DNA from: Bolinopsis microptera
Lineage: Eukaryota > Ctenophora > Tentaculata > Lobata > Bolinopsidae
Reading direction: 5' to 3'
DNA length: 64,000 bases
Assembly (NCBI RefSeq): GCF_026151205.1
Contig: NC_087072.1
Coordinates: forward strand, 16,941,669 to 17,005,668
The translations under genes were made by a program, and so were the position numbers. This document shows, in pieces, positions 5,181 to 64,000 of this stretch (position 1 is the first letter of the stretch; every line of letters begins with the position of its first letter). Under the pieces are notes generated by a model. It searched no databases, was not told the origin of the DNA, and saw only the letters and a list, made by a program, of their open reading frames with translations.

Positions 5181-5191
5181 ATAAATGACTC

Positions 5192-16585: not shown

Positions 16586-19236
16586 ATGGAAGTGTTTGTC
16601 AAAGAGTTTGAACAAGAAGTGCAAAGAAATGATGAAATTCCCGAAGCTATCATCGCCATCCAATCACTGATACGATACATCGAACAAAGTAATGTAGGAA
16701 CACTTCAACAACTCATAGAGGAGCTTCAGGTTTGCTAGATTTTTAAAATGCTCTCCTTCTTTTCATCCCATTTTATTTCGATTTTGATTGCTGCATTTTT
16801 CTTATGATTGATTGTAAACCGAGACGGTGCCCGGGTGGTTCTCATGACCAATTTTAATCTTAACAAATATATAATAAAAATAGTAATAATCCCTCACAAG
16901 GGCACTGCACTCTTAATAGGAAAATGCCACACTGTGTAGATCATCACTTTACGACGGAATTTAAACCGCATCAGACAAATATTTGCGAAAACTTAAAGTT
17001 TTGTATGCTCCAACGGCCAGAAAGAATAACTCGACAAATAAAATTGTTTATCACAATGGGACGAGTCCCCATCCTCTTACAAACATTATCGACCCTAATA
17101 TATTAGCAAGACATGTATTGAAAAAATACACTCATCTCACAAAAAAATTGTCCCTTTTTTGATGTAGTGGTGCTTGTTTGGCTCAGCGTTCTTCTTCATT
17201 AGCAAGTTTTGAACAAGAAGTTTATGCATAACTCGATCCTCTGATGAGCGGTCTGGCCTAATGAATTAATGAAGACTGAGCTAAACTTCGCTGGCTGTCG
17301 CAGCTTTCAAGCTTGACTGAGTATCTGATAGGCTGTACTGGAACTGGACAGAGTAACCTTGACTAGCCGAGTAGTCTTCTCCTTCAACTTGTCAACTCTA
17401 CTGAGCTCCCTTGCTGGTTTCAGTTCAATCTCCTCAAATATGTCTCCGACAGTTCTGTTCAAGTCTTTACTGGAATCTTCAGGCAAACCGAGAATCATGA
17501 TATATATCCCCATCTCTCCATGTAGAGAATGTTTATTTTTAGTAGCAAAGTTTTAGGTAAAATCTGACTTATTGAATTGTTTTTCCCCATTTCACAGAGG
17601 AAATGTGTAAAGAAGCATATGCTGTAACCTTCATTTGAGTAAATCCTGCCACTTACAGTTCGTCCACTTTTTACTTCCTTTGGTTCTCCATGGTTTAACT
17701 TTTCAACTAGATTATATATCTGAAACTTCCTAGATCTAGTTTTTCCAATTTGGAGAAGTCTGTCACTGTAATACCGATAGTTCAGCCATTTTAAAAGATT
17801 TTTGGCTGATTTTTTTACTGAACATTACTTACAATCCGTACAAGAAGCCATTGAAAGGATTATATAATTGAACGATAAATGACGAAGTTACAGACCAAAC
17901 AAGGTCGAAAAAATAAAAATTGAAATTTTTCCCACTTCTAAAGTTGTACATTTCACCAATCACCCGGGTCAGCAGATATCGCTTCAAAAATTCTTGTGAG
18001 TGTAGCTGATGATCATATCAAACTTTTTGGAGTAGAACTTCTCTCAGATTTGAGTTTTAAGCTATGTAATGTGGCCTCAAACGACTTAGTAAAATTCATC
18101 GTAAAAAAGGGCAAAAAAGGCAGATTTAAGGCTTAAAATGCCTATAACTCAGAAAGTATCAGTTTTTTTGAAATAATTTCTACAGAATCGTAATCAGCTT
18201 GATAAGACGAATCTTTTAGGGAATATTTTTAGAAAATTTTGAAGGTGTGCAATCTTATTCTTTTTGTCTATTTAACCATAATATAAAATAAAATCGATGT
18301 TCGGAGCAAAAACGTTTTTGGTGTATCTCCCCTTAATACTTCCCCAATTAGTACCTGTTCTCTTTTTTGAATAATTTCCATTATACTGTGTAACTCTGAG
18401 ATGTGTAACTCTGAGATGTGTAATTCTGAGATTCACAATACTAACTCTGTCCCCTGCAGGAGTTGAGTAGTCTACTAAAGTCAGCAGCTGGTACCTCAAC
18501 AACCTCCGTCGTGTCCGGATGTGACCTGTTCGTTCGTTTCATCACTTTAATGAGGAACCGCAACATGGGACCTGTTGACAGTGACATATGGGAGTCCAAG
18601 AGCTTTGATCCTGTTAGACATTTCCTTTTAGACCGTGGCAACCAGTTCATGAAGAGACTGATGATGTCGCGGAAGAAGATCGCCCAGCTCGCATACCCGT
18701 TTATTACAGATGGAGTCACGGTGTTGGCTGTTAGTTTATCTCGGGTGGTTTTGGAGATTCTCTGTAAAGCTCATGATAAAATGAAGAAGTTCAATGTGCT
18801 GGTTACTATCTCTGAGCCTGATAAGGAGGGTGCTATGATGGTGAAAGCGTTGAGAGACAAAGGAATCCAAGCCACACAGATATTAGACTGTTCCATTGGG
18901 TTTGTTATGGAGAGGGTTGATTTTATTCTGGTGGGCGCAGTGGGGGTAGTGGAGAATGGTGGGTTGATCAATAAGATAGGAACTTATCCTGTTGCAGTTA
19001 TGGCCAAATCACTCAACAAACCTTTTTATGTTGCAGTTGAAAGTTTCAAGTTCTACAGAAACTATCCGCTATGTCAATTAGACTTACCCAACGATTCAAA
19101 ATATTTGAAAATTGAAGAGAAGGGCCATCCGACAGTTGATTTTACTCCTCCCAATTTGATTAATAAACTTTTTACAGATTTAGGTGTGTTGACTCCTTCA
19201 GCAGTTAGTGATGAGCTTATAAAACTGTATATTTGA
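16586..19236 (+). CDS. EIF2B1: eIF2B subunit alpha (two coding exons)
   Basis: eIF2B is the guanine exchange factor that recycles eIF2. The alpha subunit belongs to its regulatory core, which senses phosphorylated eIF2 in the integrated stress response. Exon 1 is 16,586-16,729 (48 codons, MEVFVKEFEQEV..., ending CAG|GT) and exon 2 is 18,460-19,236 (AG|GAG). They join in frame to 306 residues, matching the usual ~305. Exon 2 shows the family hallmarks: HRGNQ-like LLDRGNQFMKR, HTFIKDG-like YPFITDGVTVL, EPDKEGAMM, VGAVGVVENGGLINKIGT, NKPFYVAVESFKF and the C-terminal LFTDLGVLTPSAVSDELIKL. The intron holds a LINE ORF1 remnant. The SETD2 start lies 420 bp downstream on the same strand. Confidence 0.95.
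17195..17516 (-). pseudogene. LINE ORF1-like remnant in the eIF2B-alpha intron
   Basis: The minus-strand frame reads IMILGLPEDSSKDLNRTV, ELSRVDKLKEKTTRLVKVTL and STAYQILSQA, then a stop, then KFSSVFIN in the same neighbourhood. This is the RRM-like RNA-binding part of ORF1 proteins of CR1/L1-type LINEs (GLPE..., RLG..., PLKV..., FSNVFIS). It is broken by a stop and surrounded by non-matching sequence, so it is an old fragment. Confidence 0.55.
18387..18432 (+). repeat. Three 15-bp tandem repeats just upstream of eIF2B-alpha exon 2
   Basis: The unit TGTGTAACTCTGAGA occurs three times (the third with AATTCT) and ends 28 bp before the exon 2 start at 18,460. It lies in the branch-point/polypyrimidine zone of the intron. 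No function is shown. Confidence 0.75.
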
Positions 19237-22600: not shown

Positions 22601-25600
22601 TTTGAGTTGGCAAGTCCCAACCTTTGTACTCAACAAGAGAGCACACCACCCGTTAGTGCCAACCAGGCCACACCACGTGGAGGTTCGGAGAGGATTTCGT
22701 GACCCCAAAAAAAGCTAACTCTCTGATAAACTCTTTAAAAATCCTCTATAAAATCCCCCAAAACCTGCTCTCCAAGAAACTATGTCACATCAAAACGTAT
22801 AATGTACTAAAAACTTGTAAACATTGTCCTGTCCTGTCATATAATAAATGTTTTGATTTTAAGATTTACTCCCAAAAAACATTTGCAATACCTCGCTATG
22901 ATATAAACTTAATTGTTAAAGTTCATATAATTTCAGTGTCCGAGGAAACATAATTCCACGTGTCACACACCATGCACACTCGCTCTCGGCTACTGGACAC
23001 AGTGCACTATGACGACACTTATCAGCACCTTCTAGTGGCTAGCTCTAAAACACAATCCTGTGAGTGCTTTCAAATTCTAGCAGCATGTTAATCACTTTTT
23101 TACATGTTTTGATTATCGTAACAAAAATTCCTATGATATACCACTTGTGTGTATAATGCAATGATTTACTCTTAAATATCATTTTTGCAATGCCTCTATA
23201 AAATTTTCTTTAGGCCGTTTAGTGGCCATTATCGATCTTCAATGAACATTCTTAAGACGATCCATAAATCAAATAGACTGGAATGCTGATTAATTGAAGC
23301 TAAAGTTTCCAAACTCCATATTTTATGGGCTACATTCCATAACTCACAGCACAGCGCTTAATTTGTTATTTACAGCACAATAATTAGTTATAATTCACAA
23401 TAATTAACAATAATTAGTAATGATCCATAGTAAATGTGTCTCCCTGATCCCGTCTTTCAGCTCTTCATAATCCATTCGTCATAATTAGTGCAGCATATTC
23501 TAGATCATTTAAATTTGTCTTTGAAGTTGTACTGTAATCTAATTTTAAATGCGTGCACAATGAATGACCATACAGCTTGCCATCTAGTTTAAAATTTAGC
23601 ATGAAATACCGCAAAATTTAAAAAGAATTAATCACCACACGATTACTTCGACAAAATTAGCTCGATTTTGATCATATTTTGGGATCATTAGTCCATATTA
23701 GAAACTAATATATAACGGCCCGCAACCAGACAGTTTTAAATTTCCTCGCAGTCCAGTGTCGTCTCCCTAACACTTTTCTTTGCCCTGGGGAAAAACGGTA
23801 AGATCTTCTAAAAATGTCCTCTCTGGCTCCAAATTTCCTTTCAAATCAAAAATTTCCTCGCAGTCAGACTGCCAGACTGCTGTTTTCTGGATGTGGGTCC
23901 AACGGGAATAATATATAATTTAACAAACTTGCCAGTAATCTCGAATGGTACACGCGATTTAAAAATTCAGATCCGTTATTTTATGACAAACGTTCAAAGG
24001 AAGCATACAAAGTTTATGATTAGACGAAACCGAATATTACACAAAACTTATTCTTAGAATCTGCAGAATGATCCCTAAATTGTCAGAGAAAGTAAGGCGT
24101 ACATTTTTAATTGAATAATGGGCTACACAATGACACAATGTAGCACATAGGCGAACAACGTTATCATTTTTGAGTTGATGAAAAAGAAAATACAATGGTG
24201 AGATGGTTGATTTAATCTGTATTTCAGAGTTGAGGTCTAACAAGGGTGGAGCTGGAGCTGTAGAGAGTCCCGAACAAACCAAGAAATCAGGAAACCTCTC
24301 CGGAGACGAGGACTCCGATGTGAACTACGACGAGGTCGTGTCACCAGAGGAACAGATCGAGTCTCATCCGGCCAGCTCTGATGAAGAACAGTTTCATGAC
24401 GTCACAGAGTTCAATGATGACGTAACAGGGCATGTTAAGCGGGACTCCAGTAACGACACGTCCATAGCTAATGGTGACGACAATTCTAACGGAGCAGAGG
24501 CAGACGACGAGGAAACATCTCGTGATGTTCCAGATCACGTGTACATGGATGAGAATTCTAACCCTGACGAGAAGAATCCAGAAGATGCGATGAGTCCCGG
24601 AGAGGATGATGAGGAAGAAGAGTTTAATAATCCTGTCAGTCCTGCGGTATCTGGCGAGGGAGATGTGACAAGTGACAGAAATGAACACCAACAATCTAGA
24701 GAAGAATATATGGAGTCTGCAAAGCACGATGCTATCAGTGAAGATGAAGATATGGAACCCGAAGAAGAAACTTGTAAGATTGAGAGTGAGGAGGCTGAGG
24801 GTGGTGTGTTTGCTCAGCATCATGAGCCTATATCTGATTATGAGAAAGAGGAAGCGAAACTAACCGGAAAAAACGAGCAGCTTCTAGAGAAGAAGGAGAC
24901 GATTTCTGAAGATGAGCGGGAACATGATGATGAGACACTTGACACTCAAGCTGAAGAAACAGAACTGGAGAGTAGGAATGAGGAAGAGAAACCAGAAGAA
25001 GATGAGGACGATCTGGATATTTCCAGACAAGAATACCTACCTGACGAGACTATCAGGTCTCCGGAAGGAGAGGTGAACGAGACGATGACATCTTACTCAC
25101 CTCGTCCTGACTACAACCCTGAGAACTTTGAACCCTGCACCCCACCAGAAAGGGAACCAGAGGAGAGAACAGAGGAAACTCCTCCTCCTGAAGATACAGT
25201 TTCTTCAGTACGGCCTACCACACCATCCTACTCAACAGATCGACCCATGACCCCAACAGAGCTTCCAAGGAGCCCAAGTGAAGGCCCCAAAACCCCAACC
25301 GGAGGCTCCAGGAGCCCAACTGAAGGCCCCAAGACCCCAACTCATGGTCCTAGGACCCCGACAGAACGCCACAGATTCCCCATCTGAAGGTCCCCGAACC
25401 CCCACAGGACCAGCTCCTGCAGACCAACCCTTCTCTCCTCGAACTCCCAGCCCTGTTTCGTCTCCTACCAAACAATCTGCTGAAATAACCAGTGTCACAT
25501 CTGCTGATCTGTCCTTTGAGTCTGTCACTTCTGAGGAGTGTGTACCTCCCTTTGATATGATGACAGAAAACGAATACGTCTCAGCTTCTAAGTAAGTTCA

Positions 25601-28600
25601 TCATCTTAATCTAGCTTATTTCTAGCTTTATTTATTTTCTTACGAATCTTAAAGTCCATTCAAAGTCCACATATCGGTCAGAATTGAATCTGATATTAAA
25701 CACATTACAAATTGGTGTGTTAACTAACAAAACTAAAGATATGTGTACAGGCAGAGATCACGCAAAGACAAGAAGATGGTCTGTTTGTGCGAGTTCAGTG
25801 CTGAAGATCCCTCTACACATTGTTCTGACAATTGTCTTAATAGAGTCCTCATGATAGAATGGTTAGTAATTGTATCTTCACGTGAGATATTGTATTTCAT
25901 GTCATATTGTAATGAATGGCTTGACTTATAGTACAGGGAAATCCGTCTGAAAAAATCGATCTGCCGACACACAAAGCTTACAAAGGATTTTTGACGTTTT
26001 TGAGTCCTAATATATGTCCTTTATGGCTGACCAACTTTTCCAAACTTTTCCACGTGTCTTAAGGCCACTTTTTGCCACTTTACCACTTTTTACCACCTTT
26101 CTTGTTTGTCAAATATCTTTAGTTGTGAACATCGTAGAAAGTTGCAGATTAATCGAGGGTGTTCATATTATCAGGAAGAAAAACTTTTGTGGAGACAATT
26201 TTTACCTCAGATAATCAATTAATTGGATAATTATCAATTAGCTAATTAGCAAAAATTTGAAATTTTTTTATTGGCTCAAAATGATCGGAAGAGCTTAAAA
26301 CACGGAGAAAAGTAGTTTTTAGAAAAACTTCGAAAATTTTTCACTCACATTTTTTTTTTCAAGACTTGGAAAAAATTTCGAATTTTCGAAATTTTTTTTC
26401 GACAAAAGTTATCAAATTGCATGAAACGTGGAGTAAAATGCTTTTAAAAAACAACTTCCTGAATTTTTGTTTTCAAGAATACTAAAATCACTTATATTTG
26501 TAGTTGGAGTTCAGTAAATCTCGGCAGATTTTAGTAATCAGGAATTACTAAATCGAAATAAATAAAAGGACTGAAACTGAAAAACTTTAACCACAGGATA
26601 TTAGAGTTTCATAATTAATTACAGTACATCCTTATCGATTTTTACAGAAACTCCACCAAATGCACATTTAAGATCGAACCGATAGCCTGCTCAATGCTCA
26701 TGCTGTACTACGATAATCGCATAATATAAATCAAGAGGCTTGCATATGAACATATTAACATATTGACATGGGTGTAGAGTTGAGCCTGTACGGAACCTAT
26801 GTAATAAATAAAACCTCTCTGAGTCTGTACCGTCAATCGTGCTAATCTGAACCGGCCTACCTTGATTACCATCTAACTCTTATTCTCTCAATAATTAGAC
26901 CGAGTTGTGCAAGAAATACGATTTATCATAGCTCATAATAATTACATTACCCACCAAATGCTATCGCATGTGGTGGGTGTGTAAATAATATCGAGCTGTT
27001 TTCAATCACACTATCACAATAAGACACAATACGTGTACATTATATGGCCCTTAATGCGGTATATGAAACGCTCTTTATCGGGGTGTTTCTATAAATCTAT
27101 AGACTATACCGTACATTTCTCGTTTCTCCCGCGAAAGGCTGGTATAGAGAGCTAGAGGTTTTACTGTATCACGAAAACTTCTACTTGTCCTCATGGCTCA
27201 TTGACAGCTCGAAGAAGGCAAGAAAAGATCAGAAAGCCTGAAATGTCAACTTGCTCATTTTAATGCTCTTCGATCCGTCCCACATTGATCCCGAGCTGAT
27301 CATCATGACCCCAAAATATTCTGCGGCTAGAACCTGTCTTTTTACTTCACAACATCAGGATTGCAAACCAACATAATTATCACCGTCTTTACTACCCCGC
27401 GGCTCTTTCCCATGCCCGACGCTTGTATCTAGATCTTACCTTTGCCCGTATCTTACTCTTTTTGATTTTAGCCGACCTTGACATATTGGAGTGATTTGAG
27501 GTATCTCACATAGCGACTGAAGCGGTATGCAGAACAATACAAAACAAGTCACAGTAGATGTTGGAAGGTGTATTTACACTGGCTTCCTACTTCCTAGCTC
27601 TTCCTTGGTATCCATCGTCTTTTCTTGCCTTCTTCGAGCTGTAAATGAGGCCAAGTAGACTTTTTCGTGATAAACTATACCGGGTCTATCGAGGTATAAA
27701 GCGTTTCATATACCGCATTAAGGGCCATTTAATACAAAAGTATGATTGAATACAGCTCGATAAGTACTTACATCACCCACTAAATGCAATATGAGCTATG
27801 ATAAATCACATTTCTTGCACATCTTGGTCTAATTATTGAGGAAAATAAGAGTTAGATTGTAGTCCAGGTAGGCCGGTTCAGATTAGCACGATTGACGGTA
27901 CAGACTCAGAGAGGTTTTATTTATTACATATTATGCGATTATCGTAGTACAGCATGAGCAGGCTATCGGTTCGATCTTAAATGTGCCTTTGGTGGAGTTT
28001 CTGTAAAAATCGATAAGGATGTACTGTAATTAATTATGAAACTCTAATATCCTGTGGTTACAGTTTTTCAGTTTCAGTCCTTTTATTTATTTCGATTTAG
28101 TAATTCCTGATTACTAAAATCTGCCGAGATTTACTGAACTCCAACTACAAATATAAGTGATTTTAGTATTCTTGAAAACAAAAATTCAGGAAGTTGTTTT
28201 TTAAAAGCATTTTACTCCACGTTTCATGCAATTTGATAACTTTTGTCGAAAAAAAAATTCGAAAATTCGAAATTTTTTCCAAGTCTTGAAAAAAAAATGT
28301 GAGTGAAAAATTTTCGAAGTTTTTCTAAAAACTACTTTTCTCCGTGTTTTAAGCTCTTCCGATCATTTTGAGCCAATAAAAAAATTTCAAATTTTTGCTA
28401 ATTAGCTAATTGATAATTATCCAATTAATTGATTATCTGAGGTAAAAATTGTCTCCACAAAAGTTTTTCTTCCTGATAATATGAACACCCTCGATTAATC
28501 TGCAACTTTCTACAATGTTCACAACTAAAGATATTTGACAAACAAGAAAGGTGGTAAAAAGTGGTAAAGTGGCAAAAAGTGGCCTTAAGACACGTGGAAA

Positions 28601-31600
28601 AGTTTGGAAAAGTTGGTCAGCCATAAAGGACATCTATTAGGACTCAAAAACGTCAAAAATCCTTTGTAAGCTTTGTGTGTCGGCAGATCGATTTTTTCAG
28701 ACGGATTTCCCTGTACTATTATCAAATTATCTAATATCCATGTACATAGTACAATTTAATGGATCACCTCATTTCTTTTCTTATGTAAGATGTGATAAAG
28801 ATAGATAATATGATGTAATTTTAATATTATAAAAGCTATAGACATAAGATTAATAGATAGTGTAGGTGTGCTCTGTTTTGACTAACAATTGATCTATTTC
28901 AGTAATTCCAGTCTATGTGTCTGTGGTGATCTGTGCAAAAATAAAAAGTTTCAAAAAGCGGAATACGCCAAATGTGAACCCTTTTACACTGGGGCCAAAG
29001 GTTGGGGGCTGAAAGCTTCTCAAGATATCATACCTGGGGACTTCATTATGGAGTACTGTGGCGAGGTAGTGAACCAGGCTGATTTTACTAAGAGGATGGA
29101 CGCGTACGGCAAAAAGAGGAACAGGCATTACTATTTCATGACTATTAGTAAAGATGAGATTATTGATGCTCAGATTAAGGGTAATCTATCTAGATTTATC
29201 AACCACAGCTGTGAACCCAACTCTGAAACACAAAAGGTAAGCATGCAACAATTCTCTTAATCGCATCTCAGCAATAGCAGCAAATCTGGGGAAACTTTGA
29301 AATACACCAATTTGAAGCATTTAACCCCCCCTTAAAAATCTAAGATTATGAATTTTAGTAATCTGATTATTTACATAGGTCCAAAAATGTCATAGCTTCA
29401 TGATAGTGCAACGAAAAAAATCTCAGAACATTATGGTGCTGAGTTAGGTGGTTAAGTAGTCGAAAAATGACTGATTTGTTAGTGGACATTTTTTATACCT
29501 CTAACACCCAAACCCTTACTACAGTGAAGATATAAGTACTACAGTTAATATTGATGGTCATTATTGAACAAAAATGGTTCATTGACACATAGTTGAAGAA
29601 GGAAATTAAAAAAATTAATAAATGTGGTCTGTGGAGTGGTTTATTTGTTTATGTTATAGTGTACGCGTGCGCGCGCGCTAGCGCGTACTTAACCATCTGT
29701 AGGCCAACATATTTAGTCTAGGCTTAAATTCTTTATATATTATGTCACCACTATGGTGCCCAATACTTTTAGTGAAGGTTTGATGTAGAACAGTTAACCA
29801 CCAACTGTGGTATATCAAAAAAACCATGTTTGTACGCGTGCGCGCGCGCTAGCGCGTACTTAACCACCTGGTATGGCACAGCATTGAAATATCACCATAA
29901 TTTCAAAAGCAGAGGTCACCATTCAGGTGCCCAAAACTTTTGACTATGGTCCCAATACCATAAAACCTTAGATGTGGCCTCAATGTGGTTAAAACATGTT
30001 TATTTTGGACTTTCGGTCAACAGAAGCCATCACAAATTAACCATTATTCAGCAACCTCCGAACTTTTTGTGCCTTATTTTGTTTTGATATTTGATTATGA
30101 GAGATAGCTGGAGGATAATAAGTGATTTTAAAGATAATGCAACAAAATGTGTGGCCGTATGGTGGTTAAAACGACCAAAAACACTGATTTTGGTCAATTT
30201 TAGACCTTTATTAACCATGATGGACACAACATAGGACTCAGCAATGTTTCTGGTCATATAAATGAGCAGGTAGTTATATCTAGATAATGTAGCATGGCCA
30301 GCTATAGCTTTACAAAGCTAATATGTGCTCTAAAAATGGTTAATTAGTGCAAATATAGGGTATTTTCGAGACATTTTAACCACCATAGCTGCACATTGAT
30401 CATAATGCATGAACTTGGGGTCAATTATGGATTTGCAAACAAATATACACTCATTTGGATAGCAAACCATTATCTGAAGTTCATATTGTGGTTACTTTTC
30501 ACTTTAATAGATGCCTTGTTCAACAGCCTAGCAAGTAATATAGCCCTTTTAACCACTTTTATGACAACATTTCTTGAAAAATTTTATCAAGACCCTTCAA
30601 ATGTCCTTTGTTGACCAGAAAATGTTGACTAAAATCATTAATAATGTTTTGATTGGTGGTTAACAACAAATTTTGACATTTTAACCATCTTTTTAGCACT
30701 TTTTACGAATATTAACCACCTCTAATCAACCATACTATTAAATTGCACATTTGTGATAAAAAATTATCATCCATGCACAAATGAACAACCACCACTATAC
30801 ATCTATAATCGGAGCAATATTTATAGCTCACCGTTCATCTTAAATTTAACCACCATTAGGACCACAAAATGCCCCCCATGAGGTTTGAAAACTTTTGTGA
30901 TAGTTGCACCATGATATGATCTCAATATAATGACTACTCAGTTCATAATATCATATCTAAAAATGGTGGTTAACCCTAAAACTGGTATTTTAACCACCAT
31001 AGTGGCCACATAGATGACCCATTAACCACAATTATTCAACATAACCATACTGTAGTGTTTTGTGCACCAGAAAAACATCACTCCAACATTGAGATTAACC
31101 ACAATGAGCTGCAACATAATGTTGAAGTCAACATACTCAAATTATGTGAAAAAAGTCAATGTCCACCAAGTTTCCCCAGATTTGCTGCTATTGCTGATCT
31201 ATAAACATTTTATATTATCTACTAATATCTGTTATTCCACATCAACACCCTTTATAATATTTATTCTAAATATGAGTGACATTTTCCTCCATTGCAGTGG
31301 CGAGTAAACGGAGTGCTGAGAATAGGATTCTTTGCTTTGAAGAGTATTAAAAAAGGAGCAGAACTTTCATTCGACTATCAATACCAAAGATACGGGTCAG
31401 TACCTGTCTATTTATAACTTCTCATCATCATATTCTTTATAAATAGTACTTACTGCATTTTGACAGCTTCTTTAAAGGATACACAATCAATTAAAGATTC
31501 TGTGAAATATGTGAAGATGTGACAATTTAGAGAGCACAATGGATCAATATATTTTAATACTTATTATATCCATTATCCAATTACAACTATTAAATACCCC

Positions 31601-34600
31601 AGAGAATAACACTACACCCCTCCCCCAGAGAATAACACTGCACCCCTCCCCCAAAGAATAACACTGCGCCCCTCCCCCAGAGAATAATACTGGACCCCTC
31701 CCCCAGAGAATAACACTGCACCCCTCCCCCAGAGAATAACACTGCACCCCTCCCCCAGAGAATAACACTGCACCCCTCCCCCAGAGAATAACACTGCACC
31801 CCTCCCCCAGAGAATAACACTGCACCCCTCCCCCAGAGAATAACACTGCACCCCTCCCCCAGAGAATAACACTACACCCCTCCCCCAGAGAATTACACTG
31901 CACCCCTCCCCCAGAGAATAACACTGCACCCCTCCCCCAGAGAATAACACTGCACCCCTCCCCCAGAGAATAACACTACACCCCTCCCCAGAGAATAATA
32001 CTGCACCCCTCCCCCAGAGAATAACACTGCACCCCTCCCCCAGAGAATAACACTACACCCCTCCCCCAGAGAATAATAGTGCACCCCTCCCCAGACAATT
32101 ACACTGCACCACTCCCCCAGAGAATAACACTACACCCCTCCCCAGAGAATAACACTGCACCCCTCCCCCAGAGAATAACACTACACCCCTCCCCAGAGAA
32201 TAACACTGCACCCCTCCCCCAGAGAATAACACTGCACCCCTCCCCCAGAGAATAACACTGCACCCCTTCCCCAGAGAATAATACTGCACCCCTCCCCCAG
32301 AGAATAATACTGCACCCCTCCCCCAGAGAATAACACTACACCCCTCCCCAGAGAATAACACTACACCCCTCCCCAGAGAATAACACTGCACCCCTCCCCC
32401 AGAGAATAACACTGCACCCCTTCCCCAGAGAATAATACTGCACCCCCCCCCCCCCCAGAGAATAATACTGCACCCCTCCCCCAGAGAATAACACTGCACC
32501 CCTCCCCCAGAGAATAACACTGCACCCCTCCCCCAGAGAATAACACTACACCCCTCCCCAGAGAATAACACTGCACCCCTCCCCCAGAGAATAACACTAC
32601 ACCCCTCCCCCAGAGAATAACACTGCACCCCTCCCCCAGAGAATAACACTGCACCCCTCCCCCAGAGAATAACACTGCACCCCTCCCCCAGAGAATAACA
32701 CTACACCCCTCCCCCAGAGAATAATAGTGCACCCCTCCCCAGACAATTACACTGCACCCCTCCCCCAGAGAATAACACTACACCCCTCCCCAGAGAATAA
32801 CACTGCACCCCTCCCCCAGAGAATAACACTACACCCCTCCCCAGAGAATATCACTGCACCCCTCCCCCAGAGAATAACACTGCACCCCTCCCCCAGAGAA
32901 TAACACTGCACCCCTCCCCAGAGAATAATACTGCACCCCTCCCCCAGAGAATAATACTGCACCCCTCCCCCAGAGAATAACACTGCACCCCTCCCCCAGA
33001 GAATAACACTGCACCCCTCCCCCAGAGAATAACACTGCACCCCTTCCCCAGAGAATAATACTGCACCCCTCCCCCAGAGAATAATACTGCACCCCTCCCC
33101 CAGAGAATAACACTACACCCCTCCCCAGAGAATAATACTGCACCCCTCCCCCAGAGAATAATACTGCACCCCTCCCCCAGAGAATAACACTACACCCCTC
33201 CCCAGAGAATAACACTACACCCCTCCCCAGAGAATAACACTGCACCCCTCCCCCAGAGAATAACACTGCACCCCTCCCCCAGAGAATAATACTGCACCCC
33301 TCCCCGGCCCCAGAGAATAACACTGCACCCCTCCCCCAGAGAATAACACTGCACCCCTCCCCCCACAGAGACGATGTTCAGAAGTGTTACTGTGGTAGTG
33401 ACAAGTGTAGGGGGACCCTGGGAGAGAAGCTATCTGAACTAGCTCCCAAACCAGAGAGAGAGAGTCCTCAGAGAGAAGACACTAGCAGTCCCACTACTAA
33501 TAGTCCCAGACCCAAGAAGAAAGAAAGTGACACGGTAAGAGTGAATTGTGCGAGCCTTGTTAGCGTTATAAGCCTATAAGGTTTTAATCTGTCAACTTGT
33601 TACTACTTACTACTATTTATTATGTCTGTAGGTACAATGTGTATAATGTGGAAGATACGCACTTTATATCATTTTATTCTCAAAGAATTTTAACTATCGA
33701 CCAAATCCTGGAGAAGATTCTATTCTATTAAATTTTGAAAGTTTGTCTGTAAATACACCAGGCCCCTCCTCTAATACTGGTCCCCTTACAGCTGGAGCAG
33801 TCACTGAACAGGATAACGCGTGATGACGGCAGCTTATCATCACCTGATAACGCGTTGCAACTTAGCAGACTAATGGTACAAACTGACAGTGTCGAGCACA
33901 GACAACTCATCCTCAAAACTATACAGGTTACCTTACTTCCTACATTCTTTGGGAAATCTTCCAGATGAATTCCGCATTTTTTACGAGAGCTCATGACACG
34001 TACTAATTTATCTTACCTAATTATCGACCGTGAAGTTTGAATTATTGTTTGAATAGAAAATTAGAATCTCACATTTTTGTTTGCAGAGTACATCAGAGGC
34101 AGCAACACTGAAGAGATTCTTAAACTATCAAGGTCTTAACATCATGTGGTCCTGGATGGTTGACGTTAACGAGTATCCTGCTTTGATACGCGGTGAAAAT
34201 AAACTAACTATTATTAGAGCGCTGCAAGGACTCCCTATATCCACCAAGAATGCAGTCGAGGACAGTAAAGTTATCAAGGTACACTAAAATTACACGATCC
34301 TGAACATTGATTTACCAACTATTCTCAAGATCTGCAGTCATTAGTACGAACTATATTATGCTCTGGATACTGGATAGTGTTACGTCCTATCACCAACGTA
34401 AAATAGGCACGATTTACAACAATAACGCCCTGTTTCCTTGTGTAGGTATTAAAAAAGTGGGTAGATAACGAACAGAGCAGTAACAGTTCCCAAGCTGACA
34501 GCAGCGAGGAGTCAGCGCCTGTTGCCGAGGAAACAGAAGAAACAGAAACAGAGAAGAGTGCCGAGGAGATTGAGACAGAGAGACAGGTTGTGGAGACAGG

Positions 34601-37600
34601 CCAGGCACTCCTCGATCAGTGGAACAGTCTCAAGGAAGTTTTCAAGATACCTAAGAAGGATAAAAAGGACACTAAACCAGTCGCTTTGAGTTCTCGTGAG
34701 TCTTTCGAACAGCTTCTTTTATTTGTAAGACTTGAATTTATTTTTGATTTTTAGCTTTATCCAAAGATGATTATAATTTGAACAGTAGGATTGTACATAC
34801 ATACATAGCCACGGTAATAATAGTACCATATTTCAGGTTCAGGGCCGGCTACATTCTCTTTAGGATCATTCTTACAGTCAGCGAACGAAATGGCTTCGGG
34901 CTCACCCCCGAGCACCTTCCCTTCTAGAACAATCTCTGTGGATCAAGCTGACTACGAGTTGCCCATGTCATTTGGCTCCACAAAACGAGAATACAGTGAC
35001 CCGTCGCGCGACAACAGGGACAACAAGAGACGACGGGATGATAGGGATATTAAACCCGGGGAAAACAAGTGGGATCAGTCGAGTGGTGGCGGGGACCGAC
35101 ATCAAGGATATGTAGTCCACGAGAGTAGGCTAAACAAGCTCAGGGGTGAAAGTAGGTGGGACTCAAATGAAGATAGTAAGAGCAAGGACAAGAGTAAGAT
35201 CGAGGATAAGGATGTCAAGTCCAGGGATGAAGGACACCGGGGCAGCAGCAGACGGGATGACCGGGGCAGGGATGATAAACGTGGCAGCAGCAGGCGGGAC
35301 GATCGTCGGGATGATCGCAGAGATGACCGCCGTGATGACCGTCGGGATAAGAGAGACTACAATCGTCGGGATGATAGGCGAGACGACAGAGGTCGACACA
35401 ACGACCGACGAGATTACAAGAAAGACTACGATACTGAATACAGCTCACGTTACTCTTCCAGAGGATCACGTGACACCTCGAGATCACGTGATGATGAGTA
35501 TAAAAGCAAGGACCGATCCTCGTCTAGGGAGAGGAAGGGGTCGAAAGAACGCGGAGATAAGCGGGAAAAAAGTGAAAATAATTCAGGTCAGGAAACTAAA
35601 CACACTCAAGAAACTAAAATGGATATTGATGACAAGCCCACACTTCCAACCACCTTACCAAAATCTCTCACACCAGCTAAACCTGAGGATCCACCGATCC
35701 GAATATCACCCGAAATTCAGAAGCAGCCGGAATTGCCAAGTTTTACACAACCTCCAGCTAGTTTACCACTTCCTGTTGGTATGCCACCTTCTCTTTCTAA
35801 CCCTCCACACAGAATGCCTGGCTATCCTCCTTTTAATCCCAGGAATGCTGGCAGTTTCCCCAGATTTGCTGGATCTTTACCCATGTTCAAGCCTCGAACG
35901 GAATCATCTGAACTATCCCGTCCTGAAAGGCCAGAACAAACCAGACCCCACCTCATGCCAGGACTATCAGATATGAATCTGCAGCAGCGGCCGCCAATGC
36001 GCATGCGCTACAGGCCTCCTACTGACATGAGCAGAATGCAGCGCCCGCCATTCGATTACAGGGGTGCTCAACAGACTTTGAGGTCCCGATTTGACCAACC
36101 TTGGAACAACGCTTTAAGATTCCAGCAGAACCGATTTACTTCACATCAGTCAGAACTCCAGACCCCAACTAGTTTATCAGATAACAGTTTACCACAACGA
36201 CCATCAGGTGTCAGAATGCCCGCCGGCAGTAGAATGCCCTCCATGCCCGCTGGTGCTAGAATGCCCTCCCACCCTGCAGGCTCTAGGATGCCAGGCATGC
36301 CTCAGACTCAACCACTCATTCCTCAACACAGGATGCACCAGCCAGGTCTTGGAATGCAGCAGTACGCTTTACCATCCCAGGGCCACAGATTCCCTGGGGT
36401 TCACGCCATGCCTCAAGAACTGTTTAAACAGATGGCTGAACACTCTCTTGCTGGTGGACTTGTCACTCCCATCGCATTTTCTCAACAAATACAGGTTTGT
36501 CAAGACCGTTAACAGATAACTTTAAAGAGAACTCTATTTTCTGGTACAAAGTTATGTGATAGAAGTGGAACCAAGAAATAATATCGAATTAGGGTGGCTA
36601 GCGGGAACTGAGATATAGCTAGTTTTTATGTCAATTTGGTGTACAAAACACGATTTCAAGAGCGCGCGTAGTGCGCACATTTCAACAATAACGACTAAGA
36701 TTTTACCATACGTATGCAACTTGGTATGTCGCGTACACATTTGGTTGTACGCAATAAATTATGTTAAAGTAAATGGTTATGACTCGTAATTACCTTTCAC
36801 TTCCCCTGACACCGACATATCTCAGGGAATGTTCCAGAGCCAAGCAGGTGGAGGTCTAGCTGCCACTCCCCCCGTCACCTCAATAGCGCCAGTTCTCCCG
36901 ACCTCCATTCCATCTTCACAAGGTAAACTAATTTCATTAGTTTAAGTGTGGCGTAATTTGCTGTAGCTACTGTTTTATGTTTAAGGAAGTTTCGAATTAA
37001 CATAATTTTTGTTATGCTCAAGTTCTACAAAATACCGTGGAACTGCTTGAAGAAAACATCTGTAAGAGTGGCTAATCCATGACATAATATGTTCATTATA
37101 TGCAAGCCTCTTGATTTATAAGCATTAAAAGGCAGCACATCATTCTTGTTGAAATATCGATCATTTTCCTGATTGGGGACTCCGACTCCTACTTTAACCG
37201 AGATTTTTTAAAATTAACGAATTCCGTAGATAAGTGAGTCCTTAGCGAAATCTGTAAAAATGTACAGGAATCAATGAATTATATACCCCGAAGTTTCGTT
37301 GCCCAGATCAATTTTCGTGAGCTTATTTGCCCTTAAATGATGCAGCAAGGATTTAGGAGAAAGTATGCAAATAAAATCCTTTAGTCGTAGACAATCGAAC
37401 GTTTTGTTAGGCCTGTCCACTGATTGATTTGAAGCGAAAGTGTAACATTCAGAAGCGGCTCCAGTGGCGTAACGAATGGCCCCGCTGACCCTGCTGTGCG
37501 GGGGGGGGGGGGGCAATCGTCGTTTGAATGTGTGACAATTTTGAAAAACTTTACTGAGGTACTAGCAAAACTACGCGTTTTGCTCTAGAAACGCTTTTTT

Positions 37601-39064
37601 AAAGATTTTACTGGCGTATCCTCTAAAACTATGATTTGTTAAATTTTAGGGGGGGGGCGCCAAAAGGGGAGAGGGCGCTTTTTCGGCGAAGGGGGGGGGG
37701 GGAGGGGGGTGCCAACAGGCAACGTTACGACATTATGCGGCTCGTGGGTTGGGTGTTATAGTGAATGTGGGTTTTAGGTCGCTTCTGAACGGGAATTTAA
37801 AATGTTCGTACGAAATCCGAATGCGCTTTGTTTCAGTTTGCTGACTTCTTTTCCCCTTAGGTATGCCTGTCTCGCAGCCTGCACTGCCCAAAGAACCGGA
37901 AGTGGAGAAGAAGCCTCAAGTTAAGCCTGCTCCTTCATCAATTACACCAGTGGTGAAGCCTGAAGAGAAAAAGCTCCCCCCTCACTGGAGAACTGCTAAG
38001 GATGCTGAAGGGAAGACTTATTACTACCATGCTATTACCAGGTTGGTTTACTTTGTTTAGTCTTTATACAATTTTGTGTCACTGTATTTGTAGTTTAAGT
38101 TGACATTCTAAATGGCCTGTAACCAGCCAAAAGCTTGTATCTGAAGACTTTACATCCACGCACCTTCATTAGTGTGGATGTTATATTATGATTAGTTATT
38201 GTTATTCTATTGATATAAGTATATCAATGTTTGTTTGTTACAGAGAGACACAGTGGGATGCACCTGTAATTGAGGAGCCAGGAGTAAGGAAGATTGAAAC
38301 ACCCTCCTCCCCTGTAGCACAACCTAAACGTCAACCTGTTGTAAAGAAAGTTAAAAGAGAGGAGTCCCCTGTTAAAGTACCCAAAGTAAGTAAACCTAAT
38401 GTATAGCCCTCACATAAACTTCCAAAAGTAGGTATCATTTAGACGATGTAACCAGTTAGCCAGTTAGTCTCGTCCTAATTGATAACTTAACTAGTTTATG
38501 TAAAGTTTCACTTTCATTATTTTATGTTTTTACTTTATTTCAGCAAGCAACTCCCGTCAAAAAGGCAGAGCCTGAGGTGGACCCAGCAACCAAGAAAGCT
38601 ATGGCAGATTTCAAGGGTTCGCTGGCTAAGTTGGTGGTAAATGTGCTGGGAAAGTACAATAAGGTGGACTGTAAAGTGGGCCGGATTATGGACAACAACG
38701 ATTTCAAATACATCGCTCGTAAGGTGAGTCTACTACAAAATGTACAATTCCTCCTTTTCTTGGCTCCCTTCAAGTTGTTAGATGATGGTATGACCTCACA
38801 GTGCACCAGTGTCTTTAAGAGTTGTGGGAATCCCGTATAGACATTTCAAATGCAGAAAACTTTCACCTGGGCCCCACTGATATGCGACTTAGGATTTTTT
38901 TCCTGAATCTTGATTTATTTCAGTTAACTCACGGATTGACAGAGAAAGAACTTGCGAGAAAAGGTGCCACCGAGCTTGCAATCACAGACAATCTCAAACA
39001 GCGAGTCAAGCAATACATCACAGCTTATATGAGTAAATTCGGGCCCATTTACCACAGAACTTAG
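19657..39064 (+). CDS. SETD2: SETD2-like histone H3 lysine-36 methyltransferase (15 coding exons)
   Basis: Exons: 19,657-19,708; 24,228-25,591; 25,751-25,861; 28,903-29,236; 31,298-31,395; 33,369-33,534; 33,792-33,926; 34,087-34,278; 34,446-34,695; 34,837-36,494; 36,826-36,922; 37,861-38,041; 38,244-38,385; 38,544-38,723; 38,924-39,064. All junctions are GT/AG and agree in phase, giving about 1,700 codons. An acidic N-terminus (to ~470) leads to the AWS zinc cluster (MVCLCEF...CLNRVLMIEC, ~480-530) and the SET domain (GWGLKA, EYCGEV, RFINHSCEPN, ELSFDYQYQRYG). A post-SET CYCGSDKCRGTLG follows. An Arg/Asp-rich then Pro/Met-rich stretch (exon 10), a WW domain (LPPHWRTAKDAEGKTYYY/ETQWDAP) and a C-terminal SRI domain (DCKVGRIMDNNDFKYIARK, which binds the phosphorylated Pol II tail) complete it. 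This order is diagnostic. Exon 2 has an apparent 1-nt frameshift near 25,365. Confidence 0.93.
20741..22707 (-). mobile_element. LINE with RNase H domain, 5'-truncated and decayed, in SETD2 intron 1
   Basis: A 17-bp direct repeat, AAAAAAGCTAACTCTCT, flanks the element (20,724-20,740 and 22,708-22,724), a typical target duplication. On the minus strand it encodes pieces of an RNase H: QAAFKALNST near 21,650, then PGHEGVYGKELADEFARDD near 21,500. This is followed by a Cys/His tail, FRIGHSPL...CEHFSGEAETSQHLLCKC, at 21,105-21,356. RNase H plus this tail is usual for I/Jockey/R1-related LINEs. Several frameshifts show that it is dead. A (CT)n run sits next to the left duplication. Confidence 0.7.
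22725..24227. other. Distal part of SETD2 intron 1, no gene seen
   Basis: AT-rich intronic sequence between the LINE and exon 2. It includes AATTA-rich clusters (e.g. 23,380-23,430) but no coding signal, RNA gene or element end that I can recognise. Confidence 0.4.
25355..25380 (+). other. SETD2: Apparent 1-nt frameshift in SETD2 exon 2
   Basis: The N-terminal frame is coherent through GPKTPTHGPRTPTE, then reads RHRFPI and stops at 25,385-25,387. The next frame is coherent from ATDSPSEGPRTPTG onward and is the one that matches the exon 3 phase. The same S/T-P repeat style continues across the break. The coding exons sum to 5,101 nt, one more than a multiple of three, so the sequence has one extra base (or lacks two) near ACAGAACGCC. 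No GT...AG intron fits here. It is an assembly error, an allele or a real lesion. Confidence 0.75.
25931..28716. mobile_element. Foldback element in SETD2 intron 3
   Basis: The ends are GTACAGGGAAATCCGTCTG at 25,931 and its reverse complement ending at 28,716, each flanked by TA (25,929-25,930 and 28,717-28,718). The arms extend to ~27,229 and from ~27,614, i.e. 1.1-1.3 kb each around a ~385-bp centre. The arms are nearly identical: a 66-codon open frame is the same in both (26,014-26,214 plus; 28,433-28,633 minus). No transposase is seen, so it is probably a non-autonomous TA-targeting element. When SETD2 is transcribed the arms can pair into a >1-kb RNA duplex. Confidence 0.88.
29269..31196. 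mobile_element. 1.9-kb terminal-inverted-repeat element in SETD2 intron 4, rich in TTAACCA
   Basis: Perfect 29-bp inverted repeats start CAGCAATAGCAGCAAATCTG (29,269) and end with the complement at 31,196. ATCT on each side (29,265-29,268; 31,197-31,200) is a likely 4-bp target duplication. The interior carries the word TTAACCA or its complement about 19 times, often as TTAACCACC. It has no coding frame. It is probably a non-autonomous DNA transposon; the superfamily is unclear. Confidence 0.8.
29661..29859. repeat. Two copies of a CG-alternating near-palindrome
   Basis: A 28-bp block occurs at 29,661-29,688 and again at 29,832-29,859, each followed directly by TTAACCA. It begins GTACGCGTGCGCGCG, ends GCTAGCGCGTAC, and alternates purine and pyrimidine almost throughout. 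Such tracts can adopt Z-DNA or cruciform structures. They stand out sharply from the AT-rich surroundings. Confidence 0.85.
31597..33368. repeat. 26-bp tandem array (about 68 units) abutting SETD2 exon 6
   Basis: The unit is AGAGAATAACACTGCACCCC followed by TCCCCC, with 25-bp variants lacking one C and point variants (ACTAC, AATAATAC). The array runs without a break into the intron 5 acceptor at 33,366-33,368 (CCCCCCACAG|AGACGATG). Each unit contains a C-rich pyrimidine tract followed by CAG|AG, like a 3' splice site. The complementary strand has G5-A-G4 runs every 26 bp. Because 26 is not a multiple of three and no unit has a minus-strand stop, all three minus frames are open; these are not genes. 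Confidence 0.97.
37499..37710 (+). repeat. Poly-G runs in SETD2 intron 11
   Basis: A run of about 14 G at 37,500-37,513, then G8 near 37,650, and G12-A-G6 near 37,691-37,709. These are good G-quadruplex candidates on the transcribed RNA and are also places where assembly length is unreliable. Confidence 0.8.
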
Positions 39065-60979: not shown

Positions 60980-63051
60980 GGAGCTCAAATCGATACTCTG
61001 TGGACCTAAACATGCTGAACATTAACATTAAACATACTGTAGATTTGTTTGCAGCCGCTATGATTGTTTCATTTCTCCGTGTGTTAAATAATTGCAGATC
61101 AAAGGAGACTTTAGGAATTGAGGGAAAGAGTTTAATACAAATATAGGTGCTCAAAACGTACTCCTCGACAGCTAATGGACAAAAAAGATCTCACAAATTC
61201 CTGAAATACCAACAGATGTCAACTTTAAGAACAATAGAATCCCATATTATATCGTACCCTCTTGAAGATTAATCCCTTCAGATCCAGTTAGCATTTCTTC
61301 ATGATGTTCTCGGTGTTGTAAACTTTAAATGGATTTTATATGGATTGCACTCTCTCGACCAGGTTTTAAAGGATTCTACTTCTCTGATTGCTATTAGCTG
61401 TATACAATATACATACATTAATCGGATTATTAAATGTCGGATCTAACTCAATTTCTCACTGAGCTTCAAGTTAACATTTTAATTACTTGATATGTATTGG
61501 GGGGTTGGCAGCCGAATGGGAATCCTGTCAAACTGATTAGAAACCCTTTTGTCAGCAATGGATTGGCTGCAGTGTCCAAATATGCTGTCATACTAATTAC
61601 TATAGTAGTAATACTCCTAACTATCCTCGCGTCCTAATATGGCGTTTCTCCTGTCTTATATATTTAAATACATATAGTAGTCCTATTATAAAATCAGAAA
61701 ATAGTGGTTGCATTTATTGGCTACTAGAAACCCGCTAGTCGAAAGCTTTGTTCGAGGAAATTTTAAAAATCAGTTATGTTTTAATTTCTCTTCATCATAT
61801 AGCTCTGTTATACTGTAGACATAATGGAATTTATCTAACAATGGCGACAGCGTTGTTAGTATTCGGATTCCCAAAACGATACTTTTTACCGCATCAAAAA
61901 ATACCAATCACAACCAAAGTTATGAATATAAGTCATAGCGTGAGCGTAAATGTGAGCTAGTTTTGAAATTATGACGTAGCATACAGCATAACAACGCGCG
62001 TAGTTAAGACTTTAAGATGTTTTTGCTCGCGCACGTGCATTTTAACGTTGCTACGCAACAGCGCAGTAAACCTTTGCTAAAATAACGACATTATTCTAAC
62101 GGTTATTTTACCTCACTTCCGACGTTAATTATAAAAAATCTAAAGACTAAATCAAAATTCTAAGAATGCTATAGCCTATTCCTATCCTTTTTCTACAACC
62201 CTGCTAAAAATGGCGAGGTTTCAACTCCATTTGCGAGCTGGGTTTGATTTCACCAGAGGGTCATTTTGAGGTCGATTTTCGGTGTTTTTTCTTCTATGTC
62301 CCCGTTGCCGGGGAAATTTCGTCAAGTTTAAATTATAGTATAGATGTGTCACGCACTACATTTCATGCTGCCTACACTATCCTGTGTATTTCAACTCGAG
62401 TCGATGTGCTCATAACAAGCCGATACGTAATTTGTTCTCGGTTATGCGGTACTAATTGCCTTTTTATGTTGTGGCCTATGAAATACATTTTACCGTTTTT
62501 ATGCCATACAAATTTATAAAACTTGTACTCATCAAGGCGACCTGTTGTCTCGTACCAGGTAATGTGGTTGGGCTTATAATAGTGGGCCAAAGAAATTAAT
62601 TTGAAAGTTGCAAAGTTAAGGGGAGATTAATCTTGAACAAACGCGAACAAATCAGGAGCAACAAATGCGGGGCAAACTTTCAGGCAAGGCCCAGTAGACT
62701 ACAGGGAGCAGTGCCCGGCACTCGGCATTGCTCGCTCGCTCCATTAGTTCATTCAATACTTATATAATTAGGCTAACTAATTCTAATGCCAGGTTAATTA
62801 AATACGGTTTGTAATTTGTAGAATGCATTAGTCGACATCTGACTGCTCTGAGCGAATAAAATGTATTACTCGGTTTGCTAATTAGTACGCTAACCAAATT
62901 AACCATTTCCCCGCAGTTTGTGCTCTACTGGCTGTATTATCTAATTCCCAGTGACAAGGTTTCACTGCAGTCTATTATTTCATTTTTCCTCAAATTGACA
63001 CGTTAAGTTTGCTTTTGTTTGTGTTTCCTTGCAAGCTGGTAATTGTTCGGA
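60980..63051. other. Region before the octapeptide-repeat gene, no exon recognised
   Basis: AT-rich; it may hold further exons or the last intron of the preceding gene, but I cannot support any. A block near 61,880-62,060 resembles ~48,575-48,730. The final 50 bases contain TTTGTGTTTCCTTGCAAG, a possible acceptor 13 bases before the next start. Confidence 0.35.
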
Positions 63052-64000
63052 ATGTCAAGCAGACCAGCAGCAAAGCCCCGAGGGGCTGGGGCAGCTGGTA
63101 AAACGGGTGCTGCAAGCCGATCTAGCACTGTTAGTAAACCAGGGACCACGGGACGAGCTGGAGCAAAGGCCAGTGTATCTGGAAGGGGTGGTGCAAGGGG
63201 TGGTTCAACTGGTAGGGGTGGTAAAGCAGGGGCTGGTAAACGTGGTGGTCCGCAGAAATCTACTGCTGAGATCGCAAAACTTCCCCCTGAAGAGATCGAG
63301 AAATGTGACATTTCTGTTATTGAGAAGCTTCCTGCTAAAGTCATTGAGAAGCTCAGTCCTATTACGATTGCCAAGCTGAGTCCTGAGAAGATTGCGTCTC
63401 TTTCGCCAAATGTCATCAGCTCTTTAGATGCTACCATCATAGAATCACTTGACATTTCTGTCATTCAAACTTTAGATCCTGCCACCATCTCAAAACTTGG
63501 TCCTGACAAAGTAGAACAGTTGCCTCTAGAAACTGTGAGTAAACTGACCCCTGAATGTCTGAACACTCTACCTGTCTCCATTGTGTCTCAGCTGGAGTCC
63601 TCCGTTCTAAACACCTTGTCTCCTGATCTCCTCAACAAGTTAGAGCCAGATAAGATCAGAGAGCTGGACTCGGAGTGTGTGGCGTCTCTTGATACCAAGG
63701 TTCTCGAGTCATTAGGGACAGAATTCCTGATAGCCCAACCTGCATCAGTCCAATCAAAGCTGAGTAAAGAATTTATCCAACAGCTTAGTACTGCCAATCT
63801 CATGGTGCTGGATCCGTCGGTGTTCGATAAATGTGACATCGATTTCCTCAACGAAGCCGACCCCTCTATCTTGAACCAATTGAAGTCTTCTGTCTTAGAA
63901 AAGCTTAGTTTGAGCACTATCGAGCGTTTAGAGCCTTCAACAATCGAAAAGCTGTCTTTGGGTATCATCCAGAAGATAGACTACAGAATTATTGAGCAAC
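63052..64000 (+). CDS. Gly/Arg-rich protein with ~30 octapeptide repeats (5' part, runs off the window)
   Basis: ATG 63,052 (in-frame TAA at 63,040) opens 316 codons with no stop to the end of the window. Residues 1-70 are Gly/Arg/Ala-rich with RGG-type motifs (SGRGGARGGSTGRGGKAG) and net basic, a style often seen in RNA-binding or nuclear tails. From ~77 to 309 the chain is an uninterrupted series of 8-residue units, consensus (K/S)L(S/D)PxxIx. The Leu at position 2 recurs exactly every eight residues (77, 85 as Cys, 93, 101 ... 301) with no insertion. Examples: KLSPITIA, KLSPEKIA, SLSPNVIS. I do not recognise the family. Bacterial LTTAQIAA-type repeats and animal mesothelin/stereocilin-type repeats look partly similar. 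A solenoid fold is inferred. Confidence 0.75.
   Translation, partial: MSSRPAAKPRGAGAAGKTGAASRSSTVSKPGTTGRAGAKASVSGRGGARGGSTGRGGKAGAGKRGGPQKSTAEIAKLPPEEIEKCDISVIEKLPAKVIEKLSPITIAKLSPEKIASLSPNVISSLDATIIESLDISVIQTLDPATISKLGPDKVEQLPLETVSKLTPECLNTLPVSIVSQLESSVLNTLSPDLLNKLEPDKIRELDSECVASLDTKVLESLGTEFLIAQPASVQSKLSKEFIQQLSTANLMVLDPSVFDKCDIDFLNEADPSILNQLKSSVLEKLSLSTIERLEPSTIEKLSLGIIQKIDYRIIEQ

Follow-up and report, generated by a model that had tools for sequence, protein, structure and literature searches.

The 3' end of a 64,000-nucleotide stretch of the Bolinopsis microptera genome (the window; positions 16,941,669 to 17,005,668 of NC_087072.1, contig C1 below) contains a forward-strand open reading frame that encodes eight-residue repeats, one after another, in a single register. 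This locus raises the question of what holds the register in place, what kind of protein the repeats belong to, and what they might do there. The window part of this first coding exon runs from 63052 to 64000 (+), starting with an ATG at 63052 and still open at the window end. Since an in-frame TAA stop lies just 5' of this start codon (63040 to 63042, +), it is the first possible start in the exon. By composition, residues 1 to 68 (63052 to 63255, +) are a basic N-terminal tail rich in Gly, Arg, and Ser, with 14 Lys or Arg residues and no Asp or Glu. Residues 77 to 316 (63280 to 63999, +), as delimited by unit counts and the structure model, are 30 octads with no indel. When the frame is read through the rest of the exon in the same assembly, the array extends to 198 consecutive units (residues 77 to 1660) with zero indels.

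The consensus of the 198 units is LDPSVIEK. Leu is found at position 1 in 166 units, compared to a maximum of 53 in 1,000 shuffles, and within the window the Leu phase count is 25 of 30, compared to a maximum of 14 in 10,000 shuffles. Hydrophobic residues (LIVMF) account for 97% of position 1, 98% of position 6, and 73% of position 5, while position 3 holds Pro in 35% of units and one of LIVMF in 32%, and the remaining positions are mostly polar and vary widely in residue. Residue identity is 0.30 at a lag of 8, versus 0.04 to 0.08 at the lags from 2 to 19 that are not multiples of 8; a 3-unit superperiod is weak (z of +1.5 to +2.1). The net charge per 33 octads along the array is -17, -19, -15, -15, -5, and +7. 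MAFFT alignment of blocks of 12 units produced gaps in multiples of eight, so the unit counts were made on ungapped units; the gapped alignment is the profile used for the PDB search described below.

An earlier reading of the window, made from its letters alone (the sequence-only reading), had placed Leu at every eighth residue from 77 to 301. This is the case at 25 of those 29 positions, the exceptions being C85, Q229, C261, and A269. The (S/D)P motif that it assigned to the units was overstated, as only 7 of the 30 window units contain it, and even a lone Pro stands at position 2 or 3 in just 16. Our counts agree with its two other observations, an Ile, Val, or Leu after the Pro motif (position 6 is hydrophobic in 29 of the 30 window units) and a register in which no residue is gained or lost, which is true of the 30 window octads and likewise of all 198.

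Regular repeats of this kind can reflect either recent duplication or long-term constraint on the protein. All 198 octads differ from one another, and the mean DNA identity of adjacent octads is 0.415 in the whole array and 0.42 within the window, in line with the divergence noted previously. After a random redraw of codons that left the residues the same, adjacent-octad identity was 0.414 (standard deviation, 0.006). All six Leu codons are in use at position 1, and neighbors with the same residue have different codons in 348 of 479 cases, compared to 337 expected. Synonymous sites are saturated between octads, while the register and the core positions are kept. Because all units differ and the DNA identity of neighbors is at the random-codon level, we conclude that the array is old and that its register is kept by selection and not by recent duplication, as the sequence-only reading had proposed.

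A different account would be that the array is a translated minisatellite, a 24-bp repeat that is open by chance and without function, and the genome does contain other open 24-bp arrays. When the 264.65-Mb assembly (232 contigs) was searched with the window protein, 26 matches were found, 14 in the octad gene and 12 elsewhere. Nine of these 12 are on eight stretches, all of which are young tandem arrays with 88 to 96% matches and a repeat unit of 24 bp in seven and 12 bp in one; the other three (two on contig C10 and one on contig C2) have at least 15 stops each. However, no two of the 198 units of the octad array are alike, neighbors match in DNA no better than randomly chosen codons would, positions 1 and 6 are hydrophobic in 97 to 98% of them, and no stop or frameshift occurs in 5.2 kb. 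Tandem Repeats Finder, at a minimum score of 40, barely detects the array, reporting no more than 1.9 copies of a 24-bp unit there. A chance-open minisatellite is thus almost inconceivable as the source of this frame. One of the eight stretches, on contig C12, contains a gene-like acidic frame of 614 amino acids (L011; G000:C12:8906600-8909500, minus strand) made of near-identical EEVSPAAV octads. Its array (24-bp unit, 25 copies, 92% matches) is recent-looking and has no clear relation to the array analyzed here.

The sequence-only reading was right that the gene runs past the window: the octads continue to residue 1660 and are followed by a TACC_C domain, which lies outside the window and was therefore missed. 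Our gene model has 10 exons and encodes a protein of 1,987 amino acids (220 kDa, pI 4.9). Its nine introns are all GT-AG, their phases match, and there is one frame with one final stop. In contig coordinates (G000:C1), exon 1 spans 17004720-17009730 (5,011 nt) and is followed by exons 2 (17009889-17010055), 3 (17010527-17010576), 4 (17012605-17012656), 5 (17013445-17013507), 6 (17014210-17014308), 7 (17014814-17015026), 8 (17015164-17015270), 9 (17015445-17015565), and 10 (17015685-17015765). The C-terminal 317 residues match TACC_C (PF05010) with 63.4 bits, compared to a cut-off of 29.9 (E = 3.2e-17), over profile positions 43 to 200 of 201, and the next family on this end, GAS, reaches 17.4 bits, under its cut-off of 32.3. 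The best PDB match of the same end is TACC3 (5lxn; E = 0.0022), with which it has in common a terminal EL-x-x-ICD-x-L pattern. We named the gene as a TACC gene because of this downstream domain. Between the octads and TACC_C is a short, acidic linker that contains GSRIPAPARS (SRIP at residues 1710 to 1713), which we take to resemble the EB-binding SxIP motif; a relaxed form of this motif, [ST]x[IL]P, has six other sites in the 1,987-residue protein.

The splice that joins the array to the TACC exons deserves scrutiny, since the donor chosen for exon 1 (CAG|gtctgg) is weak and others in the same phase fit too (e.g., ATA|gtagag), as does a phase-0 donor-acceptor pair. In addition, the octad frame remains open for 1,724 codons (1,724 amino acids) when read past the presumed splice, and the TACC frame has an upstream ATG, within the sequence FYMCYHGNK. 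These features would fit two neighboring genes, one encoding octads only and ending at a TGA at about 17009893 and the other a separate TACC gene beginning from the next exon. On the other hand, the octad frame's own stop overlaps that next exon, so there is little room for a terminator and a promoter. There is also no AATAAA or ATTAAA between the octads and the TACC exons, from the array end to 17011363, inside intron 3, and the frame stays in phase through nine further exons to one stop. We consider two genes quite unlikely; judged from splice phase, the TACC gene very probably carries the octad array.

TACC proteins, which assist microtubule assembly at centrosomes, are usually recognized by their C-terminal domain, and their N-terminal parts are variable. 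Like members of this family (TACC1-3, maskin, D-TACC, TAC-1, and Alp7; PF05010), the ctenophore protein is acidic and has an above-cut-off TACC_C domain at its very C terminus; unlike in those proteins, this domain is preceded by a 1,584-residue, gap-free octad array. In a protein search of the genome with the TACC end (17 candidates scored), five rows had an E value of 1 or less, four of which are the gene's own TACC_C exons and the fifth a match on contig C6 (E = 0.42). When run against the genome exon by exon, the PF05010 profile gave no match, not even at the known TACC locus, so a second, divergent TACC gene may be present. With one TACC-family gene detected in the genome, the sequence comparisons indicate that the octad gene is most likely the ctenophore TACC orthologue. 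No octad-bearing TACC protein was found in the open-licence literature among the matches listed, and while this does not prove absence, a TACC protein with an N-terminal octad array is apparently an undescribed architecture.

In single-sequence AlphaFold2 predictions for residues 70 to 316, the best model had a mean pLDDT of 75 and the other four 55 to 59. The best model has one helix of 4 to 6 residues per octad and no strand, with confidence that drops after residue 170. For a bacterial control (30 octads from the Rhizobium locus L024), the pLDDT was 94.6 and the helix pattern was the same. The models make it highly likely that the octad array is a short-helix solenoid, with one predicted helix per octad, as the sequence-only reading had expected of a structure prediction.

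When the ctenophore model was used in a Foldseek search, eight matches had an E value of 0.001 or less, the first six of which are mesothelin chains (E = 7.4e-5 to 3.9e-4); for the bacterial control model, mesothelin accounts for all seven of the matches at this threshold. The global fit of the ctenophore model to the top six mesothelin chains is poor (TM of 0.25 to 0.37, rmsd of about 10 to 13 Å). VIA-align placed an engineered protein (4rv1) and the ARM repeats of importin-alpha first for the ctenophore model (Z of 8.3), with beta-catenin from 7.4 down, and a Clostridioides difficile phage receptor-binding protein (7qlr) first for the bacterial control (Z of 9.3, rmsd of 5.0), all Z values within what the tool describes as common for repeats. 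The best 50 VIA-align rows for either model do not include mesothelin. At the sequence level, the mesothelin profile (PF06060) was not among the Pfam families with an E value of 10 or less for the octad array, and mesothelin matched in a single-sequence PDB search at E values of 0.43 to 0.82 and was absent from the best 60 of 61 PDB rows for the octad profile. In excerpts of PMC10035497, mesothelin is described as a compact, right-handed, GPI-anchored solenoid whose 24 short helices form nine layers. The octad models resemble the mesothelin/stereocilin/otoancorin superfamily in that mesothelin is a right-handed spiral of short helices and the top Foldseek match of both models, and they differ in that mesothelin is GPI-anchored and has nine layers, while the ctenophore array lacks a PF06060 match and overlays only loosely. 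From the models, we suggest that the two have a common kind of fold, and we do not claim homology.

These comparisons also bear on the absence of a known animal family defined by this unit, which the sequence-only reading had noted. That view stands insofar as the Pfam matches over cut-off are not credible; it needs amendment in that the best Foldseek match is an animal protein, mesothelin, and that HeliScrew4 and, to a lesser degree, bacterial ALTTAQ repeats have similar units. Two Pfam candidates were rejected. With a 1,626-residue query, Phage_TAC_7 (PF10109) reached 47.1 bits when summed (cut-off of 25), with no stretch that passes alone and a best stretch of 29 residues, and RPAP1_N (PF08621) reached 25.7 bits, 0.4 over its cut-off of 25.3, with a best stretch of 37 residues. 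Since the HeliScrew4 sequence matches both families too (25.5 and 25.4 bits, respectively), we regard both as matches that the repeat pattern produces by chance. In NCBIfam, two families were returned, both far under cut-off.

Of the solved structures, HeliScrew4 (9zem) matches best in sequence (E = 7.4e-9); by profile, its E value is 2.6e-12, with leucine-rich repeat (LRR) proteins close behind. The octad profile matches designed LRRs and VLRs with E values down to 5.5e-12, and single-sequence PDB searches give several weak LRR matches, as would be expected if the protein were an LRR protein with 24-residue units read as three times eight. In contrast, the period is 8 and not 24, with only a small 3-unit excess; the octads have no conserved Asn; and there is no LRR family among the Pfam matches. 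The model is all helix, with no strands, and LRRs are missing from the best 50 Foldseek rows. We take the LRR profile matches to reflect Leu spacing and hold out very little prospect for an LRR protein at this locus. Because LRRs score almost like HeliScrew4, PDB sequence E values were not used as proof of homology. HeliScrew4 itself is like the ctenophore array in having octads in the same register, and in sequence comparison the 103 residues seen match PF20080; it is unlike it in being a 120-residue chain of near-ideal ALTPEQIA units. It was not among the best 50 Foldseek rows for either the ctenophore or the bacterial model.

The unit length is that of the bacterial LTTAQIAA repeats, as pointed out in the sequence-only reading, and the likeness of the unit to ALTTAQ (PF20080) is loose. 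A search with the HeliScrew4 sequence led to at least 27 bacterial loci. Among the matches listed, a regular expression that fixes positions 1, 2, and 6 found arrays in 26 of 27 loci (842 units), and the profile of these pattern-picked units had a correlation of 0.656 with that of the ctenophore units. Because the pattern itself fixed those positions, the comparison was repeated with an unfiltered cut of the matched stretches from all 27 loci (460 units, again among the matches listed). With these units, the correlation was 0.593 in register and 0.367 or less in the other seven registers; without positions 1 and 6, it was 0.501 in register, and the next best was 0.414. Position 5 is Gln in the bacterial units versus Val or Ile in the ctenophore (correlation of -0.2), and positions 7 and 8 are Ala or Gly versus Glu and Lys.

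These numbers speak to the possibility that the array belongs to the bacterial ALTTAQ family and was transferred horizontally into the TACC gene. Such an origin would account for the same unit length, for the in-register correlation across the 460 units, and for the way the 316-residue window piece matches PF20080 below threshold (15.6 bits, E = 0.013). Bacterial arrays are also very long, and one from Candidatus Marinimicrobia (L029), a 1,808-residue open frame that runs off both ends of its stretch and is largely made of ALTTAQ-like octads, is as long as the ctenophore array. However, the match is under the family cut-off of 26.4 and PF20080 is not among the Pfam matches for the 1,626-residue query, whereas the positive controls scored 257.9 bits (the Rhizobium L024 array) and 128.1 bits. 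The residues at positions 5, 7, and 8 differ, the register barely stands out without positions 1 and 6, and there is no sign of recent arrival. Transfer of an ALTTAQ array therefore seems improbable to us. In features other than descent, the two sets of repeats are alike in their eight-residue unit (Leu at position 1, a polar residue at 2, often Pro at 3, and Ile, Leu, or Val at 6), their very long arrays, and the same predicted helix per unit; they are unlike in that the ctenophore array is under the family cut-off, has Val or Ile at 5 and Glu-Lys at 7 and 8 in place of Gln and Ala or Gly, and is in a eukaryotic gene with introns. Because of the sub-cut-off score and the differing unit, we did not file the array as ALTTAQ; the ctenophore octads probably work structurally much like it.

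The protein would thus be laid out as a basic, Gly/Arg-rich tail, 198 octads, an acidic linker with an SxIP-like motif, and a TACC coiled coil at the C terminus. The prediction is of one short helix per octad; the mostly hydrophobic positions 1, 5, and 6 would face the core, and positions 2 and 3 (Asp, Ser, or Pro) would mark the boundary between one helix and the next. The octads may then stack into one unbroken screw of the mesothelin or HeliScrew kind, right-handed if it is like mesothelin. Assuming about three octads per turn, a guess based on the three short helices in five of mesothelin's seven repeats and not supported by the weak 3-unit superperiod, and a rise of about 1 nm for each turn, the rod formed by the array would measure an estimated 60 nm or so.

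In excerpts of PMC11921806 and PMC4200520, TACC domains are described as parallel dimeric coiled coils, and their association with XMAP215-type polymerases as a feature conserved in organisms from yeast to frog. By analogy with other TACC proteins, this domain could dimerize the ctenophore protein in parallel and bind the XMAP215/ch-TOG polymerase. The genome contains a TOG-domain sequence (XMAP215 or CLASP) on contig C3 and an EB1 match on contig C11 (17 of 41 profile positions), which on sequence grounds are possible partners of the ctenophore TACC protein. Two TOG matches of equal score, length, and profile range lie about 59 kb apart (G000:C3:2008791-2009354 and 2067440-2068003), and this pair either arose by recent duplication at the locus or is a segment duplicated in the assembly.

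The screw might then serve as a long spacer or scaffold that sets the distance between the microtubule-end module and a partner of the basic tail or of the screw surface, at centrosomes, spindle poles, or basal bodies; we give this role an even chance. Alternatively, the octads could fold in the same way and act mainly through their surface, as an extended, mostly acidic, multivalent array and not as a ruler of fixed length. It could act on tubulin, on the gamma-tubulin complex, or in scaffold condensation, and such a role would fit a net negative charge over most of the array and polar positions that vary widely, as well as excerpts of PMC11921806 in which a liquid-like scaffold is attributed to D-TACC. 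Nevertheless, a gap-free register over 1,584 residues argues for mechanical continuity, which multivalency alone would not need, and we see the surface role as a possible but less likely one. We favor, with some reserve, the reading as a whole in which this is an octad-screw TACC protein whose array is a helical spacer or scaffold tied to the XMAP215 polymerase. A stronger form, in which the array is a molecular ruler that holds the polymerase module off the centrosome or basal body and belongs to an octad-screw class common to ALTTAQ, with mesothelin as a decayed relative, strikes us as doubtful; if true, it would mean a single-chain, indel-intolerant screw of 198 octads that is tens of nanometers long.

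What the locus would offer is a strikingly regular N-terminal array in a centrosomal protein that is itself conserved, and this in an animal lineage close to the root. If its fold is confirmed, it would place a natural eukaryotic octad screw beside ALTTAQ arrays, HeliScrew4, and mesothelin and provide a test case for a protein in which length is under selection more than surface sequence.

Several other features were observed around this gene and in the genome. A glutamate receptor of this genome has, as its best three PDB matches, chains named ML032222a iGluR, a receptor of Mnemiopsis. Upstream in the window, there are two mobile-element-like frames, a 742-residue PHD-finger open reading frame (560 to 2785, +) and a 796-residue frame with THAP and Mutator-like transposase sequences (5189 to 7576, +), as well as an initiation factor 2B-like exon (18445 to 19233, +; PF01008, E = 1.5e-53). 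A putative SETD2-like gene, the parts of which we joined by inference, spans 24182 to 38837 (+), with a SET domain at 28886 to 29257, an SRI match at 38460 to 38837 (22.5 bits versus a cut-off of 23.5), and acidic and Ser/Pro-rich frames between the two. Several antisense frames are open in a minisatellite of this region (31597 to 33363; 26-bp unit, 68 copies, 93% matches). A large fold-back element lies downstream of the TACC gene (L018:4865-7434; G000:C1, about 17018364-17020933) and has inverted arms of 723 nt (98% complementarity) and 186 nt (97%). Also downstream, on the same strand as the TACC gene, is a gene-like frame for a rhodopsin-type GPCR (L018:8548-9672, +; 7tm_1, E = 3.4e-15).
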